A DNA stretch of 42,595 nt from Caldilineaceae bacterium. GTDB taxonomy: Bacteria; Chloroflexota; Anaerolineae; Caldilineales; Caldilineaceae. Location of the stretch: positions 1 to 42,595 of the forward strand of contig JALSIX010000069.1 in NCBI GenBank assembly GCA_026989655.1. The letters are read 5' to 3'. A program made the position numbers and the translations under genes. Shown in pieces: positions 6,240 to 15,813 of this stretch (position 1 is the first letter of the stretch; each line of letters starts with the position of its first letter). Below the pieces are notes generated by a model. That model was not told where the DNA came from, did not search any database, and saw only the letters and a list, made by a program, of their open reading frames with translations.

Positions 6240-6307
6240 CCTGTTCTCCTCGGCAAAGCCAACGGTCCTCCTGGAACGGCGAGGGACAGCTCGAGATCCC
6301 TCGTCGT

Positions 6308-6347
6308 TTCATGTTTTGCACCTCTGCCCTTCACATCCTCTTCATCC
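6308..6347 (+). promoter_or_regulatory. Putative response-regulator boxes before the Met-rich secreted protein
   Basis: TTCATG at 6308, TTCACAT at 6330 and TTCATCC at 6341 are spaced 22 and 11 bp apart, one or two helical turns, as bound by OmpR/PhoB-family regulators. The TTCACAT element matches the tandem boxes at 15796-15813 in front of the response-regulator operon. No strong -10 was found; GACACT at 6356 is the nearest candidate. Confidence 0.45.
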
Positions 6348-6371
6348 CAGGGCGCGACACTGGAGACAGAA

Positions 6372-6469: not shown

Positions 6470-6817
6470 ATGCGTGCTCGACAGTGGTTCACCGTGGTAG
6501 GGCTTGCGCTGGTCCTCTCCCTGTTGGCCTTCGGCGGCCCGGCGTGGGCCCACGGGGGTGGGCCCACCGGAGGCGACGATGCCCCGGCAGCCCCCACCAC
6601 CGGTGGATGGCTCCAGCAGATGCAGGAGTGGATGGGGCCGGAGGCCTGGGGCCAGATGATCCAGTGGATGACCCGGTTCCACGGCCCCGAGTTCACCGGC
6701 CAGATGTTGCAGTGGATGGACCAGACCGGCGGCTGCCATGGCGACGGTCTCGGCGGCCTTGGCGGCCGGATGGGCAGCCTCTTCGGCTGGGGCTTCGGCG
6801 GCCGCATGGGGCGTTGA
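6470..6817 (+). CDS. Small secreted His/Met/Trp-rich protein, possible copper binder
   Basis: This 115-residue protein is not a family I can name. It has a clear signal peptide (RARQW start, hydrophobic core, cleavage after PAWA), then HGGG and repeated MQEWM / GQMIQWM / GQMLQWM units, a CHGDG segment, and a Gly-Arg-Met tail. The spaced Met, Trp and His residues resemble periplasmic Cu(I)/Ag(I) binding proteins. AGGAGGTGCGAG just before the ATG is a strong ribosome site. It lies between metal-ATPase genes and has upstream repeats matching those before the two-component operon, suggesting co-regulation. Metal binding is inference. Confidence 0.75.
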   Translation: MRARQWFTVVGLALVLSLLAFGGPAWAHGGGPTGGDDAPAAPTTGGWLQQMQEWMGPEAWGQMIQWMTRFHGPEFTGQMLQWMDQTGGCHGDGLGGLGGRMGSLFGWGFGGRMGR

Positions 6818-6896: not shown

Positions 6897-6920
6897 CCCG
6901 CGAGGAGCAGGAGGGGACCT

Positions 6921-7334
6921 ATGTGGTGTCACGTGTTGTTGGCCATGCCGGTGATCGGGCTGGGGCTGTTCTTCGTCCTGCCCCTGGCCACTGCGTTGCC
7001 CATCTATCTCCTGGTGGTCGCGCTCTCCTTCGCCCTCTACTACAAGATCACCGAGAGCATGCACGCGCCCGTCCGTACCGGACCGGAGGCGCTCATCGGC
7101 CGGGAGGTGGTGACCACCGAGGACGGGTCCATCCGGTGGCAGGGGGAGTGGTGGACCGCGCAGCCCCGGCTGCCCCGGCAGCGGGTTCGGGTGGTGGGGT
7201 TGAAGGGGCTGAACCTGGTGGTGGAGCCGGTGGAGCCGGCCTCCACCTCCGGCCTCACGTCCCCGGTTCCGGGGACGTCTTCGGGGCCGAGGAGGCCATC
7301 CGTCTGGGGAGCAGGCGCCCACCGAAGGAGTTGA
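6921..7334 (+). CDS. NfeD-like membrane protein
   Basis: A 137-residue protein with two membrane helices (about residues 5-22 and 25-42) and then a soluble block, [11 protein letters not shown] ... [17 protein letters not shown]. That block matches the C-terminal OB-fold of short NfeD proteins, which usually partner stomatin-like proteins or membrane proteases. Here no stomatin gene is adjacent. GGAGGGG precedes the ATG at 6921; a longer in-frame reading from 6738 runs through the hairpin and lacks a ribosome site, so it is rejected. The last ~30 residues look non-conserved, and the gene's final 80 bases overlap the 3' end of the opposing P-type ATPase gene. The role in the metal cluster is unknown. 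Confidence 0.7.
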
Positions 7335-9531
7335 GCAACACCGCGCTGACGCTGGCCGCCATGGCCACCATGGCCCAGACGGGGTGGACCAGCCCGGTGG
7401 TGGCCAGGGGGACGCCGATGCCGTTGAAGGAGAAGGCCAACACCAGGTTCTGGACCGTCTTGCGGTAGGCCCGTCGGCTGATCTGGTAGGCCTCCACCAC
7501 GGCCAGGAGCCGCTCCCCCACCAGGACCACGTCCGCGGATTCGATGGCGATGTCCGTGCCGCTGCCGATGGCGATGCCCACGTCCGCCTGCATCAGGGCC
7601 GGGCCGTCGTTGATGCCGTCGCCCACGAAGGCCACCCGTTCCCCCTGACCGCGTTGCAGACGCCGCACCACCTGGGCCTTCTCCTCGGGCAACACCTGGG
7701 CGATGACCTCCTGGATCCCCAGGCTCTGGGCCACAGCCCGGGCCGGGGTCTCCCGGTCGCCGGTGACCATGACCGGCCGGATCCCCTGTTCCCGGAGGCG
7801 GGCGACGGTCTCCGCCGCGTCGGGCTTGGGCACGTCGGCCAGGGCGATCAGCCCCACCAACACCCCGTCCTGGGCCACGCCGATGACGGTCCGTCCCTGC
7901 TGTTCCCAGGCGAGCACCGAACCTTCCAGTTCCCCCAAGGCCACACCGGCCTCCTGCAGAAAGCCCAGGCTTCCCACCCGGATCTCCCGGCCCTGGAGGG
8001 TTGCGAGGACGCCCTTCCCGGGCACGGCCTGGAAGCCCTCCGCGGCCGGTGGCTGGATCCCGGCCTGGAGTGCGTGGCGATGGATGGCCCGGGCCAGGGG
8101 ATGTTCCGAGTAGAGCTCTGCGCCCGCGGCCAGGCTGAGCAAGGTGGTGGGGTCCACTCCGGGTGGGGTGGCCAGGTCCACCACCTGGGGCTTGCCCACG
8201 GTCAGGGTGCCCGTCTTGTCGAGCAGGACGGTCCGGATCTCCCGGAAGACCTGGAACGCGGCCGGGGAACGCATGAGGATCCCCCGCTGCGCGGCCTCTC
8301 CGCCGCCTCGGATCATGGCCAGGGGTGTGGCCATCCCCAGGGCACAGGGATAGCCCATGACCAGTGCGGCCAGCATGGCGAAGACCGCCCGGGCCAGGTC
8401 CACCTGGCCCCGGAGCACCCACGCGCCCACGGTCCAGACCAGCAGGCCCATCCCGGCGAAGATCACCACCCCGGGCACGTAGTAGCGCAGGATCGCGTCC
8501 ACCAGTTGTAGGATGTTGGGCTTCAGGGCCCGGGCCTCCTCGATGGAGCGGGCCACCCGATACAGGAAGCTCTCGGAGCCCACCCGGGTGGCCTGGACCA
8601 GGAGGGTGCCGGTCTGGTTGATGGAGCCTCCGATGACCTCCTGGCCGGGCTCCTTGTCCACGGGCAGCGGCTCGCCGGTGACGATGCTCTCGTCCACTGC
8701 GGAGACCCCTTCCACCACCACCCCGTCCACGGGGATCCGCTCCCCTGGACGGACCCGAACCCGGTCTCCGGGGTGCACCTGCTCGATGGGCAGCTCCACC
8801 TCGTGGCCATCTCGGAGCACGGTGGCCGTGTCGGGCTGGAGGGACAGGAGCCGGCGCACGGCCTGGGAGGCCCGGGTCCGCACCAGGAGGGAGACGTAGC
8901 CGGAGAGGATGTGGTAGGCGGTGATGAAGACGGCCACGCCGAAGAAGTCGGGCACGGGAAAATCGGCCACCCCAGGGACCAGGCCGTACTGCCCCAGGAT
9001 GCCCAGGACGCCGCCCAGCAGCCCGGCAAACGCGCCGAACTCCATGAGCACGTGCTGGTTCAGGATCCCCCGGCGCAGGGAATAGTAGGCCATGGTCAGG
9101 ATGTGCCAGCCCGGCCCGAAGACCGTGCCCAGGGCCAGGGCCATCATGGCCCACTTGAACCACGGCTGCCGCACGCCGAACCACATGGCCACCATGAGCA
9201 GCGCGGCCCCGCCGGCCAGCACCCCGGTGATCTGGAGACGCCGCCGCTCCCGGGCCAGCTCCTCCTCCTGCTCCTCGAAGGCCCGCACCTTGTCCGGGTC
9301 GCGGATGGTATAGCCCAGCCGGCGGAGGACCTGGAGCAGCTCCTCGGGCCGACGACGGGCCGGGTCGTAGCGGATGAGCGCGTCCTCGTGGGCCAGGCTC
9401 ACGTGGACCTCCACCACCCCCTCCATGCGGCCCAGGGCCCGCTCGATGGTGGCTGTGCAGAAGGAACAGCTCATGCCCCCGACCTTGACCTGCAGGGTGG
9501 CCGATGCAGCAAGGGAAGCGCTCTGGCTCAT
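7255..9531 (-). CDS. Heavy-metal P-type ATPase with YPC membrane motif
   Basis: A 758-residue P1B-type metal pump. An N-terminal HMA domain carries GMSCSFC (about residues 17-23), followed by eight predicted helices, actuator TGEP, the phosphorylated DKTGTLT at about residue 438 and [10 protein letters not shown]. The sixth-helix metal site, normally CPC, reads YPC (residues 394-396, bases 8344-8352; codons TAT CCC TGT). The seventh helix has FN where CopA has YN, and the eighth reads MAASVS. These changes touch known Cu(I) ligands, so a simple CopA label is doubtful. It is last in an operon with a MerR regulator and a CcdA-like protein, 10 bases after the latter. The start at 9531 follows GAGGAG and opens directly into the HMA domain. 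Confidence 0.9.
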
Positions 9532-9541
9532 GGTCAGCTCC

Positions 9542-10210
9542 TCAGGGTCCGAGATATCCACCGGCGCCGGAGAGCCACAGCTCCGCGGCGCCCAGCAGCA
9601 CGAACATGCTCCCCGCGACCACGTAGAAACGGGAGCGGTGCCGTTGGGCAAAGGCCGTCAACGCCTGGGCCGCCCCCTCGGAGACCACCCCCACCAGCAG
9701 CGGAAGGCTCAGGCTCACGCCGAAGAGGAAGAGGGCGACTCCCCCGGCCAGCCAGTTGCCCAGGGTCACTGTCCGGGCCAACAGGCCCAGGACCAGGGGA
9801 CCGATGCACGCGGAGATGTCCAGGCCAAAGAGAAGGCCCAGGCCGGCCGCGCCGGAACGCCCCTGGAGCCATCGGGCTCGGGACAGGTGGAGCCCGGGCA
9901 AGGGCAGGGGCCGGCGGCCGTGGAGGATCAGCAGGAGCCCCAGGCCGACCAGCCCGATGTTCACCGTCACCTGGAACCCCCAGGCCAGGCCCTGGGCCAG
10001 CTCTCCCACCAGGCCAAAGGCCAGCCCCAGCAGGGTGAGGAAGAGGGCCCGGCTCACCGCGAAGACCAGCCAATCTCCCAGCCGTTGGGCCTGGGACCGA
10101 CCCAGGAGCCGCCCCAGGAAGACCGCGTTGATGCCCAGGGCGCAGGGGGTGAACGCACCGGCCAGGCCCAGGACCAGGGGCGCCAGCCACAGGGGCAACA
10201 GCTCAGCCAT
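9542..10210 (-). CDS. CcdA/DsbD-type membrane protein
   Basis: A 222-residue, six-helix membrane protein of the cytochrome c biogenesis/DsbD transmembrane family. The two redox cysteines expected in helices 1 and 4 are present, Cys23 in FTPCALG and Cys135 in ISACIGP. Family members pass electrons from cytoplasmic thioredoxin to outward-facing thiol proteins. Here it sits between a MerR regulator and a metal P-type ATPase, with no TlpA- or CcsX-like partner nearby, so its likely role is metal handling or keeping metal-site cysteines reduced; that is inference. GAGGTG precedes the ATG at 10210. The stop is 10 bases from the ATPase start. Confidence 0.82.
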
Positions 10211-10288: not shown

Positions 10289-10762
10289 TCATCGAGGGGC
10301 CTCGGCTCGGGAGGGCAGGCGATCCGGGCGGGCGACAACGGCTGCCGCTCCCGTGCCCGGGGGCTCGATGATGCGGCAGATGCAGGCCGTCTCCCCCTGG
10401 GAGGAACCGGCCTCGGGAGCCTGGGCTCCCAGCCGGTGCAGGCGAACCAGCTCCTGCTGGAGCCGACGCAGCTCCGCGATCCGGGTTTCGATGGCCTCCA
10501 GCCGGCTCACAATGCGGTCCCGAACGTAGTCGCAGGGCGGTTCGCCCCGTTCGCGCAGGGCCAGGATCTCCCGGATCTCGTCCAGGGTGAAGTCCAGGGC
10601 CCGGGCTCGGACCACGAAGCGCAGCCGTTCCAGGTCCTCCTCCTCGTAGACCCGATAGCCGTTGGGCTCTCGGCGGGGCGGTGGGAGCAGCCCGATCTGC
10701 TCGTAGTAGCGCACGGTGGACGGGGCCACCCCGGCCCGGGCGGCCAGTGTCTGGATGCGCAT
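10289..10762 (-). CDS. MerR-family metal-responsive regulator
   Basis: A 157-residue DNA-binding protein. Residues 1-70 are a MerR winged helix (TLAARAGVAPSTVRYYEQIGLL, then NGYRVY), followed by a long dimerisation helix and a C-terminal metal loop. Cys77 at the head of the dimer helix and Cys127/Cys129 near the end (ACICRIIE) are the candidate ligands. In this family a Cys at the position of Cys77 goes with divalent-metal sensors such as ZntR and MerR, whereas CueR-type Cu(I)/Ag(I) sensors have Ser there. That makes Hg, Cd, Pb or Zn more likely inducers than Cu(I). It is first in the operon and reads from the 19-bp-spacer promoter at 10804-10834, so it is probably self-regulated. AGGAGG precedes the ATG. 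Confidence 0.9.
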   Translation of the reverse strand: MRIQTLAARAGVAPSTVRYYEQIGLLPPPRREPNGYRVYEEEDLERLRFVVRARALDFTLDEIREILALRERGEPPCDYVRDRIVSRLEAIETRIAELRRLQQELVRLHRLGAQAPEAGSSQGETACICRIIEPPGTGAAAVVARPDRLPSRAEAPR

Positions 10763-12707: not shown

Positions 12708-14111
12708 TCACCCCGGCGACCTGGTGGGCAGCCAGACATGGAAGCACGCCCCCTGGGAGGCACCCGGGGGAGGGCTCTCCACCCAGATCCGGCCTCCGTG
12801 GGCCTCTACCAGATGGCGTGCAATGGCCAATCCCAGGCCCGTGCCGCCGGTCTCCCGGCTGCGGGAACGGTCGCCTCGGTAGAAGCGCTCGAAGATGTGA
12901 GGCAGATCCTCGGGAGGGATGCCCTCGCCCGTGTCCTGCACCTGGAGCTCCACGCCATCATGCCCTTCGGCCACCCGGATGGTTACCTGGCCACCGGGGG
13001 GGGTGTGGCGGATGGCGTTGCTCAACAGGTTGTTCAACACCTGTTCCATGCGTCGGGGATCGCACAGGGCGGTGGGCCCCGGGGACGGGGCCACCACCTG
13101 GATGTGGATGCCCTTGGCCGCGGCCTGGGAGCTCAGCCCGGTGGCTGCCCGCGCCGCGAGCTGGGCCAAATCCACCTGGTCCAGCTCCAGGGCCAGTTGG
13201 CCGGCCTCCGCGTGGGCCAGGGTGCGGAGGTCCTCCACCAGCCGAGCCAGCACTTCCACCTGCTGGTGGATGGGGGCCAGGTTCTCGGGGGTGAGGGGGA
13301 AGACGCCGTCCTCCAGGGCCTCCACCGTGCCTTGGATGGCCGCGAGGGGGGTGCGGAGTTCGTGGGCCACATCGGCCACCATCCGGCGGCGGAGCTCCTC
13401 CTGTTGCTGGAGGGCGTCGGCCATGCGGTTGAAGGCCATGGCCACCTGGCCCAGCTCGTCTCGGCTCTCCACCGGCACCCGGGCCGAGAGGTCGCCCTGG
13501 GCGATCCGGCGAGAGGCCTGGGCCAGGGCGGTCAACGGCCGGGTGATCTGGCGGACCAGGAGCCCTCCGAGCCCCAGGCCGATGGCGCTGGCCACCAGGC
13601 CGGCGATGAGCACGGCCCGGGTCACGCCGGCCAGCAGGGGCTGGATCTGGGCGGCGGACATCTGCATCATGGTGCCTTCCACCAGCAGGGTGCCCACCGT
13701 CTCCCCATCCACCTGGATGGGCCAGCCTCGGGCGGCCAACAGGGTGAAGAGCTGCTCCCCGGGTGGGCCGTGGCTGTCGGCCACCACCCGGCCCGTGGCG
13801 TCGGTCACCCGGATGCGGCTCTCCCACATGCCCATCATGCCGCCCATCATGCCACCCATCATGCCGCCGTCGGACGCGGCCCAGATCACCTCCTCCAGGG
13901 CGGCATCCAGCCCTTCCCAGCCGTCGTACTGGCGATAGTACTCGGCCAACACCTGGGCCAGCACCTGAGGGCGGACCATCTGGTTGCCCACCATGAAGTG
14001 GGAGAACTGGGTTGCAGCTCCCTGGCGCGTCAACACCACGGTGACCAACACGCCCACCGTGATGACCATCACGAAGGCTCCCATCAGCTTGACCCACAGG
14101 CGCTGCGTCAT
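12708..14111 (-). CDS. Sensor histidine kinase with Met-rich extracytoplasmic domain
   Basis: A 467-residue membrane kinase. Helix 1 spans about residues 10-28, the extracytoplasmic sensor 30-165, helix 2 about 166-187, and HAMP 188-240. The phospho-acceptor is His250 in VAHELRTPL. The ATP-binding domain shows [10 protein letters not shown] (N box), DTGEGIP (G1) and GGTGLGLAI (G2). The sensor domain contains three MMGG repeats (residues 83-95, bases ~13827-13865) and a later GTMMQM, residues suited to soft monovalent metals such as Cu(I) or Ag(I). Its ATG overlaps the response-regulator stop by four bases (ATGA), so the pair is coupled. The kinase call is certain; the ligand is inferred from composition. 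Confidence 0.94.
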
Positions 14112-14848
14112 GGGGAGTCCGGCGCCTCGCTCCGGGAGGGCTGGGGCACGAAGCGGTAGCCCACGCCGTGGACGGTCTCGATGTAGCGGCTGTTGCGGGG
14201 GGAGTCGCCCAGCTTCCGGCGGATGTTCTTGATGTGGACGTCGATGGTCCGTTCGTAGGCCACATCGCCCAGGCCGTCGTCCTGGGTCGCGTCCAGGAGT
14301 TCGGCCCGGGTGAAGGGCCGCCCTGGGTAGCGCATCAGGTGGTGGAGCAGTTCGAACTCCGTGGCTGTGAGGTCGATGGGGCGGCCGGCCAGGGTGACGG
14401 TGCGGTAGATGGGGTCCAGCCGCAGGTCGCCGGCCTCCAGGGGACGGACGTCGCCCAGCTCTCTGGCTGCGTGGAGGCGTCGCAGGGCCGCCCGCACCCG
14501 GGCCACCAGCTCTCGAGGGCTGAAGGGCTTGATCACGTAGTCGTCCGCGCCCAGCTCCAGCCCCACCACCCGGTCGGTCTCGTCCACCCGGGCGGTCAAC
14601 ATGAGGATGTAGAGCTGAGCCAGCTGGGGATCCTGGCTGGCCCGCAGGCGGCGACAGATCTCCCATCCGCTCAGCCCGGGCAGCATCAGGTCCAGCACCA
14701 GCAGGTCGGGTTTCTCCTGCTGGACCAGGGCCAGGCCGGTGGTGCCGTCCGTCGCGGAGAGCACCCGATAGCCGGCCTGGCGCAGGTAGCCCTCCACCAC
14801 CCGTCGGATCTGGTGGTCGTCCTCGATGACCACGATGGTCTCGGACAT
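14108..14848 (-). CDS. OmpR/PhoB-family response regulator
   Basis: A 246-residue regulator. The receiver domain (1-120) has the acidic pair Glu9/Asp10-Asp11, phospho-acceptor Asp53 in VLDLMLPG, and the Lys of YVIKPF. A winged-helix DNA-binding domain (about 145-235) carries [11 protein letters not shown] and the recognition helix region [16 protein letters not shown], ending GVGYRF. It should be phosphorylated by the kinase encoded immediately downstream. The tandem TTCACAT repeats upstream of the operon (15796-15813) are good candidates for its binding site, and a related set lies at 6308-6347. The start at 14848 ([11 protein letters not shown]) is chosen by alignment with the receiver fold; upstream in-frame codons are non-homologous. 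Confidence 0.94.
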
Positions 14849-14873: not shown

Positions 14874-15392
14874 TCAGTTCTTCGGGGCCCCCTCCGCGAT
14901 CCAGCGGCGGACGAGCTCGATGCGATCTGGGGGCAGCGGTGGCCCTCCCAAGGGCATGGCCGGCTGGCTGGCACCGGTGAGGCGGCGGACCAGCTCGCTG
15001 GCCTCCGGATCTCCGGGGATCACCACCGGGCCGTGCCGGCTCCCCGCCATGAGATGCTCGTACGAGGTCAGCCACAGGCCGGCCTGGCCGCCGTGGCAGG
15101 CCACGCAGTACGCGTCGAAGAGGGGCTGGATGTCCCGGCGATAGCTCACCGTGGCCGGCCCCCCTGGGGTGGCCGTGGGGACCACGGTCACTGCCGGCGG
15201 GGGTTCCAGCCGTCCTCCCATCATGCCCGGCCCCATCATACCACGGCCCATCATTCTGCGCATGTGGCCGGGCCCCATGGGGCCCATGGGGACGCAGCCG
15301 GCCAGGGCCACCAGGGCCAGGCCCACAGCAGCCCCCACCATCCAAGGACGTCTTCGGGGGGGCCGGGGTTTCATGGGTGCCGGAGAGCCCAT
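14874..15392 (-). CDS. Met-rich c-type cytochrome lipoprotein
   Basis: A 172-residue secreted haem protein. A lipoprotein signal ends LVALAGC (Cys33). It is followed by a Met/Gly-rich stretch (residues 36-60, with [11 protein letters not shown]) and then a cytochrome domain, [19 protein letters not shown]. The haem site is CVACH (96-100) and Met146 in PAMPLGG is a possible axial ligand. The domain resembles the single-haem modules often fused to planctomycete proteins. It sits inside an operon with a two-component system whose sensor shares the Met-rich pattern, so a role in copper capture or redox signalling is plausible but unproven. ATG at 15392 is used; ATG at 15374 is an alternative. Confidence 0.82.
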
Positions 15393-15402
15393 GGGCCCGC
15401 CC

Positions 15403-15669
15403 TCAGGAGGCCAGCCGTCGGCGCAGCCGCTCGTACTCCTCCTCGCTGATCTCTCCCCGGGCCAGACGCAGCTTCAGGATCTCCTCGGCGGTCTGGGCGG
15501 GTGGCGCGGGCACGCCGTCGGCCTGGCCCCGGCTGCCGCCTCCGCCGAGCTGGCGTACCATCCACACGATGCCCAGGATGATCAGGGTCAACAGGGCAAG
15601 CCAGAAGATCCAGCCGATGACCATCATGATCCACCCCCAGGTTCCCCACATGCCGTATCCACCCATCAT
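15403..15669 (-). CDS. SHOCT-domain small membrane protein
   Basis: An 88-residue protein. The N-terminus MMGGYGMWGTWGW is Met/Gly/Trp-rich, one membrane helix spans about residues 14-38, and after a Gly/Pro linker the C-terminus AEEILKLRLARGEISEEEYERLRRRL is a SHOCT domain, an oligomerisation module. It is the first gene of the six-gene minus-strand operon, with AGGAG upstream of two adjacent ATGs (15669 and 15666). Its stop lies 10 bases before the cytochrome start. Proteins of this shape are common beside copper and cytochrome genes, but their function is not established. Confidence 0.82.
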   Translation of the reverse strand: MMGGYGMWGTWGWIMMVIGWIFWLALLTLIILGIVWMVRQLGGGGSRGQADGVPAPPAQTAEEILKLRLARGEISEEEYERLRRRLAS

Positions 15670-15795: not shown

Positions 15796-15813
15796 ATGTG
15801 AAGGAAATGTGAA
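15796..15813 (-). promoter_or_regulatory. Tandem 11-bp-phased repeat upstream of the SHOCT-cytochrome-TCS operon
   Basis: On the minus strand TTCACAT-4-TTCACAT is a perfect direct repeat with 11-bp period, the layout bound by OmpR/PhoB-family dimers. It lies about 127 bases upstream of the first gene. The first TTCACA with TCTATG 18 bp downstream could double as the -35/-10 of the promoter. Likely bound by the response regulator encoded in this operon. Confidence 0.6.

Follow-up and report, generated by a model that had tools for sequence, protein, structure and literature searches.

A small methionine-rich secreted protein of Caldilineaceae in a predicted copper-responsive regulon

In Synechocystis, the copMRS genes are described as coupling a methionine-rich, secreted copper binder to CopRS (PMC4335983), and the putative CopR site has been given as TTCAT-N4-5-TTCAT (PMC4182526). 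In CusS, the sensing of periplasmic copper is reported to be aided by a Met-triad loop (PMC10100754). A literature search, with most subscription journals outside its reach, found no account of a copper circuit in Chloroflexi or Caldilinea, nor of a copper-SHOCT two-component system. Systems of this kind are already known. What looks new is the protein family, the layout of the promoter within this group, and the sharing of methionine motifs by sensor and effectors. The window, which is the whole stretch of 42,595 nucleotides analyzed here from a Caldilineaceae bacterium (contig JALSIX010000069.1), carries at 6470–6817 (+ strand) the gene of a small exported protein. Taken jointly, the observations below make it likely that this protein binds Cu(I) outside the cytoplasm, much like CopM and PcoE, and belongs to a regulon of the CopRS type, which is our best reading of the locus.

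The protein, characterized from the ORF list, its homologues, a repeat analysis and a model, is 115 amino acids long, secreted and Met-rich. Judged by its sequence, the ORF is real: an AGGAGGT Shine-Dalgarno motif precedes the ATG with a spacer of 5 bases, a signal peptide is recognizable by eye at around residues 1–27, and homologues can be aligned. Alternative reading frames across these positions were dropped, as the Shine-Dalgarno motif and the homologues fix the start. An earlier note on this DNA had pointed out M..WM repeats and a CHGDG site, and both are indeed present, with MQEWM at residues 51–55, MIQWM at 63–67, MLQWM at 79–83 and CHGDG at 89–93. When the mature sequence was shuffled 20,000 times, its three occurrences of the M..WM pattern were never reached. 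The “His-rich ends” of the same note are overstated, as the whole protein contains only three His.

The core is built as a 16-residue tandem repeat (LQQMQEWMGPEAWGQM / IQWMTRFHGPEFTGQM / LQWM...), whose self-alignment score was reached by 0 of 5000 shuffles. MQEWM is out of register with MIQWM and MLQWM in this repeat. An offset of 16 is the best self-alignment offset in all 15 members of the family; of the 1000 shuffles made for each member, between 0 and 14 reached the score. AlphaFold2 predicts three helices (47–55, 57–71 and 73–86) in the repeat core (47–86), with pLDDT block means of 92–96 over residues 51–80, for a whole-model mean of 68.8 and a pTM of 0.40. The predicted helical core is followed by a single cysteine (Cys89) and a Gly-rich/Met tail. 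With nine Met, the window protein has the fewest of the family, the other members having 11–20. Downstream, at 6920–7334 (+, putative start), lies the gene of a small membrane protein resembling those encoded 3′ of the gene copies in genomes G008 and G013. A Pfam scan gave no match for this window protein, and its relative in L025 matches NfeD weakly (29.4 bits, cut-off 29.1).

One copy of the gene is present in the window genome, which comprises 4.09 Mb in 150 contigs; two more matches, weak ones at E 6e-4 and 0.6, fall inside long open frames. Searching 61 genomes with the single sequence brought up 14 additional copies, all with E values of 7e-10 or lower, for a family of 15 aligned copies from 14 genomes, with one row per copy in the alignment (A1). 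With a profile of these 15 members, the gene was detected in 13 of the 46 genomes of the taxonomic family and in one genome outside it. Four genomes of a 400-genome sample of the phylum were matched: the own genome, G050 (a copy-bearing genome from another family of the class) and two distant ones. The latter two matches (E ~2e-4) resemble other small secreted proteins and were excluded from the members. A scan of contigs with the single protein alone found no relative; with the alignment as query, 12 loci came up, including a 16th copy (L040), which was used in the neighbourhood comparison and left out of the alignment, the promoter set and the counts. Among the 12 named relatives, eight come from Caldilineaceae or Litorilinea MAGs. 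A distant Chloroflexota genome (G251) encodes another small secreted protein (L052, 1495–1932, +), ~200 bp from an OmpR-type regulator; this secreted protein may resemble DUF2680/YckD proteins.

Searches of the 15 members against Pfam and NCBIfam gave no consistent family, only scattered weak matches with at most four members per family. The single sequence-profile match in the PDB (E 0.73, a glyoxalase family protein) was rejected. Foldseek returned four PDB matches (best E 5.4), for which the best Z obtained with VIA-align on those four chains was 3.8; no fold was named from these comparisons, in which a missing match does not count as evidence. A tblastn search of plasmids with one member found none. 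On these sequence comparisons, the family of the product has no name as yet and occurs chiefly in Caldilineaceae.

Upstream of the gene, a direct-repeat box (TTCACATCCTCTTCATC, 6330–6346, +) carries 10 of the 12 consensus letters of a predicted binding site of an OmpR-type regulator. A −10-like hexamer, GACACT, is located at 6356–6361 (+), exactly 9 bp past the box. A perfect box (TTCACATTTCCTTCACA, 15797–15813, − strand) lies in the same window, 5′ of a run of SHOCT, cytochrome c, regulator and kinase genes, and is again followed, after 9 bp, by a hexamer (TATGGT, 15787–15782, −). An 11-bp direct repeat, whose consensus is TTCACA-N5-TTCACA, is present in all 15 gene promoters. The shorter pattern TTCA-N7-TTCA occurs in 15 of 15 upstream regions, starting between −157 and −100 (shuffle mean 0.2, maximum 3), and each other TTCA spacing from N0 to N19 in at most two, the genomes having a shared ancestry that makes the 15 promoters, like the genome counts below, non-independent. 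A hexamer xAxxxT sits exactly 9 bp past the 17-bp box in all 15 promoters, any other spacing from 0 to 25 being found in at most one. The layout of box and hexamer is also present in 9/9 other boxes from these loci and in 10/10 recurrent distant boxes, against 2/7 boxes before unrelated genes. The nine other boxes were chosen from the hits of a position weight matrix (PWM), leaving out scores below 20 and the repeats at L091 5173, L095 3012 and L095 3023; the multicopper oxidase has tandem half-sites, of which the final pair (L106 6303) was tabulated in place of the pairs at 6281 and 6292, which score higher.

The box of the window gene is the lowest-scoring of the 15. For a PWM built from the 14 other boxes, it is the second-best place in the window, with a score of 15.2 (best 32.5, next 6.5). 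The number of window matches with at most two mismatches, two, is not unusual (shuffle mean 0.87; two or more in 21 of 100 shuffles). An OmpR/PhoB-type activator would be expected to sit over the −35 region, ahead of a −10 hexamer, as in this layout, and we infer from the sequences that the OmpR-type regulator binds the box.

The rule TTCA-N7-TTCA-N12-A-N3-T, for which only three source promoters came from the window genome (the two in the window and that of the multicopper oxidase), finds six sites in its 4.09 Mb, and none in the reversed control. Two of these predicted regulon sites are in the window, before the 6470–6817 gene and before the operon that encodes a SHOCT protein, a Met-rich cytochrome c, the response regulator and the kinase. 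The others lie ahead of the genes of a multicopper oxidase that has Met-rich inserts, a 323-aa secreted protein (12.1% Met), a DUF302 protein and a protein resembling SHOCT (25.6 bits against a Pfam cut-off of 27). The last three are independent of the building of the rule. When one mismatch in the box is allowed, 10 sites are found in the own genome against two in the control; four of the ten were followed up. Exact boxes amount to 32 in the 14 regulator-bearing genomes (control 2) and to 20 in the 32 genomes without the regulator (control 8; Mann-Whitney p 7e-6). A pattern of box plus hexamer slightly stricter than the six-site rule gives 35 (control 5) and 16 (control 3) in the same two sets. 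Of the 32 exact boxes counted where the regulator is present, 24 are ahead of regulon-type genes and eight are not; seven of these eight were tabulated, and the hexamer is present in two. In other genomes, boxes precede genes of a DUF305 protein (G003), a Gly/Trp/Met repeat protein (G012) and SHOCT-type proteins (G008 and, by eye, G013).

Several further proteins were noticed around these boxes. In genus g6 (L139, L140, L141, L143 and L146), a box lies 111–114 bp upstream of the gene of a small membrane protein with a NERQIPRW-like start; the one copy tested gives a sub-threshold match to the Ctr copper transporter (17.9 of 25.3 bits). A secreted protein of G034 (L142, 1233–2852, −) has 132 Met in 539 residues (24.5%), with relatives in L144, L145, L147 and L024. 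An exact box is placed 101–102 bp ahead of the start in this family. In its four complete copies, Met-rich repeats lie between an N-terminal domain and a C-terminal one similar to it, and the three copies tested (L142, L147 and L024) have no Pfam match. In G012, a secreted Gly/Trp/Met tandem-repeat protein with one Cys (L095, 6362–6823, −) is encoded under a box, adjoining a related regulator on its 5′ side; it is unrelated to the 6470–6817 family yet occupies the equivalent slot. A beta-propeller/rhodanese lipoprotein-like protein with a Met-rich stretch is encoded upstream of the multicopper oxidase of the own genome (L106, 4449–6146, +) and has a relative (L025, 6936–8561) near the small gene in G013.

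The boxed operon of the window starts with a SHOCT-domain membrane protein with a Met/Gly/Trp N terminus (15403–15669, −; Pfam scan), followed by a lipoprotein-like c-type cytochrome with a Met cluster and one CxxCH (14874–15392, −; PSCyt1). The OmpR-type response regulator (14108–14848, −) is 73% identical to that of G011 and the sensor histidine kinase (12708–14111, −) 59% to its G011 orthologue; the next own-genome matches by E-value reach 45% and 42%, respectively. This pair, the genome's best match to that of G011, lies ~6 kb from the 6470–6817 gene. A Met cluster of the kinase's sensor loop is encoded at 13827–13862 (−); in each of the 15 orthologues examined, a stretch of 14 loop residues includes 4–8 Met.

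Regulator and kinase adjoin the gene in nine of the 15 loci, six as one operon in the order gene, regulator, kinase and three divergently; in one divergent locus, a DUF302-like gene adjoins the regulator. Four copies (G008, G030 and two in G013) are located on contigs other than that of the regulator. The regulator (E≤1e-80) is present in 13/13 genomes of the taxonomic family with the gene and in 1/33 without it (G003); by genus, these figures are 6/6 and 1/11 (p=0.0006). They cover family genomes only, and a NarL-type pair is found near the G050 locus. The kinase (E≤1e-90) occurs in 15 of the 46 genomes, i.e., in 12 of the 13 gene-bearing ones and in G003, G010 and G012; in G034 it is cut by a contig end and hence falls outside this count.

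Such adjacency and co-occurrence would also suit a role of the protein as an accessory sensor, binding the outer domain of the kinase and either presenting the metal or holding the kinase off. CpxP acts in this way on CpxA, and MMG-type motifs occur both in the kinase loop and in most tails of the family proteins. A comparable role appears as a suggestion for SilE and SilS (PMC5008109). Nevertheless, G003 has regulator, kinase and boxes with no copy of the gene detected, and in G012 the slot ahead of the regulator is taken by the unrelated Gly/Trp/Met protein. From these two arrangements, the family protein seems dispensable for the system, and we consider a sensory role rather unlikely.

Two P-type ATPases are encoded in the window. 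One is a CopB-type P1B ATPase with a CPH motif (10–1989, +; TIGR01511 above cut-off). A P-type ATPase, 69–78% identical to it, follows the kinase in G013, G010 and G003; in G003, it comes after the DUF305 gene and is in two overlapping pieces. The CPH motif is present in the copies checked (window, G013 and G010). The second, a heavy-metal ATPase with an HMA domain and YPC instead of CPC (7255–9651, −), has no box; DsbD_TM (9542–10210) and MerR (10289–10762) genes lie upstream of it, and L026 has a similar set close to its copy of the 6470–6817 gene. Cu(I) and Ag(I) are the ions that Met clusters prefer. This preference, the likeness to the Met-triad loop of CusS, and the multicopper oxidase and CPH ATPase, both copper genes, make Cu(I) the likeliest signal of the kinase.

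Both components score below the NCBIfam heavy-metal cut-offs (kinase, TIGR01386, 203.4 of 292.55 bits; regulator, TIGR01387, 160 of 279.2). The best-scoring model of the kinase is BaeS, of envelope stress (302 bits, below the cut-off of 500), and BaeR is among the top matches of the regulator. These scores bring to mind an envelope-stress chaperone like Spy, CpxP or ZraP, with a Met-rich helical surface, in a BaeRS-type response to which copper would be one inducer. The protein is small, secreted and predicted to be helical, and one family member matches Spy weakly (E 0.017). Against this, LTXXQ (PF07813) is absent from the matches listed at E≤1 for all 15 members, and the first genes at the six sites encode Met-rich, SHOCT-type and DUF302 proteins and a multicopper oxidase, with no proteases or porins. 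A chaperone is therefore improbable in our estimation.

Several unrelated Met-rich secreted proteins, with up to 24.5% Met, share the promoter type. They would fit an oxidant sink as well, with hypochlorous acid or peroxide taken up by Met at the protein surface and with oxidation of Met as the signal of the Met-rich kinase. The system is accompanied, however, by a multicopper oxidase and copper-type ATPases, and methionine sulfoxide reductase is never the first gene at the six own-genome sites, so that we regard this explanation as very unlikely.

Members of the family begin with a signal peptide and a variable linker, followed by a conserved core, one Cys per member (15/15) and a Gly/Met tail. 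M51, M63, M67 and M83 are present in all 15 members, M79 in 13 and M55 in eight (otherwise Leu in five and Phe in two). Within the repeat, M51, M67 and M83 fall in one phase and M63 and M79 in a second. Over core residues 45–93, four of six Met columns are invariant against four of 43 others (p=0.004). L80 is likewise invariant, and the conserved Met could partly serve packing. H71 is found in 14 of 15 members, which have 2–8 His each.

The earlier note had singled out Trp-Met pairing as the distinctive feature and suggested a metal chaperone or sponge, with Cu(I) chemistry like that of CusF as a possibility. The general idea, a secreted chaperone or sponge probably for Cu(I), is backed by the promoter, kinase, ATPase and multicopper oxidase context; the Met/Trp pairs are contradicted by the alignment, in which Trp is free to vary at these positions. 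W54, W66 and W82 adjoin Met in the window protein, but W54 occurs in six of the 15 members, W66 in one (the window protein) and W82 in five, with Arg as the commonest replacement; homologues lacking the Met/Trp spacing were what the note had itself named as a refutation. The one conserved aromatic, which the note does not mention, is at position 60 (W in 11, F in two, Y in two), three residues ahead of M63, where an aromatic-Met contact is possible from the sequence. On the alignment, the conserved feature of the family is methionine, not tryptophan, and with a core predicted to be helical, binding of Cu(I) by cation-pi contact of Trp-Met pairs is hardly credible.

We return to the Cu(I) binder of a CopRS-type regulon. 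The 6470–6817 protein is probably a Cu(I) binder because its promoter puts the gene in a predicted copper circuit whose sensor has a Met cluster. The partner kinase would sense Cu(I), or Ag(I), via the Met cluster in its outer loop, and the OmpR-type regulator would then switch the gene on. Once exported, the protein would bind Cu(I) outside the membrane through thioethers, together with His71 and Cys89, its helical core offering Met pairs spaced MxxxM. Both the multicopper oxidase and the CPH ATPase may be supplied with Cu(I) buffered in this way. The role of the protein would be that of an induced Cu(I) buffer or carrier, as is proposed for CopM and PcoE (PMC4335983, PMC5008109).

More tentatively, the whole circuit of the Caldilineaceae might be of one chemistry, with a kinase that senses Cu(I) by an MMG-type Met cluster and a regulator that turns on unrelated secreted or membrane effectors, which carry similar motifs and would compete with the sensor for the same Cu(I). 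These effectors would be the helical-repeat family, the proteins with up to 24.5% Met, the SHOCT protein, the cytochrome c and the inserts of the multicopper oxidase. If so, the secreted proteins would set the threshold of the response and shut it off. The system allows the sharing of one binding motif by sensor and buffer to be addressed simply. An ORF that had no annotation is now placed in a defined regulon, which can be tested and for which the promoter rule is exact, and one predicted role can be proposed for several unnamed Met-rich secreted proteins and for some SHOCT and DUF302 genes.

In comparison with known systems, Spy, CpxP and ZraP are likewise small, helical, secreted proteins tied to an envelope-sensing two-component system, but they form the LTXXQ family, to which the present members give no match. 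CusF, also small, secreted and a putative Cu(I) binder, is a beta barrel with a conserved His/Met/Met/Trp site, in contrast to the helical repeat modelled here, and its family is absent from the Pfam matches of the 15 members. Its Trp has no conserved counterpart in the residues first proposed, although the WxxM spacing of W60 and M63 presumably resembles the CusF site. SilE and PcoE, small Met/His periplasmic proteins, are likewise encoded near a two-component pair; they are described as becoming helical upon binding Ag(I) or Cu(I) and as having ten spatially conserved His (PMC5008109), whereas only H71 is near-invariant here. The 16-residue repeat and the single conserved Cys also set this family apart from them. 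CopM of the Synechocystis copMRS system, as described, is likewise Met-rich, secreted and encoded with a regulator and a kinase, with a TTCA-type repeated promoter element (PMC4335983, PMC4182526). It has two domains of the DUF305 type, marked by an HH motif, however, and a DUF305 match at E≤1 was obtained for 0/15 members of this family. In Synechocystis, the RND pump copBAC is under the control of the system too, while the partners here are a CPH ATPase and a multicopper oxidase. As for a CopRS/CusRS-type system, a shared operator for copper genes is predicted here from six sites, with the multicopper oxidase among them.
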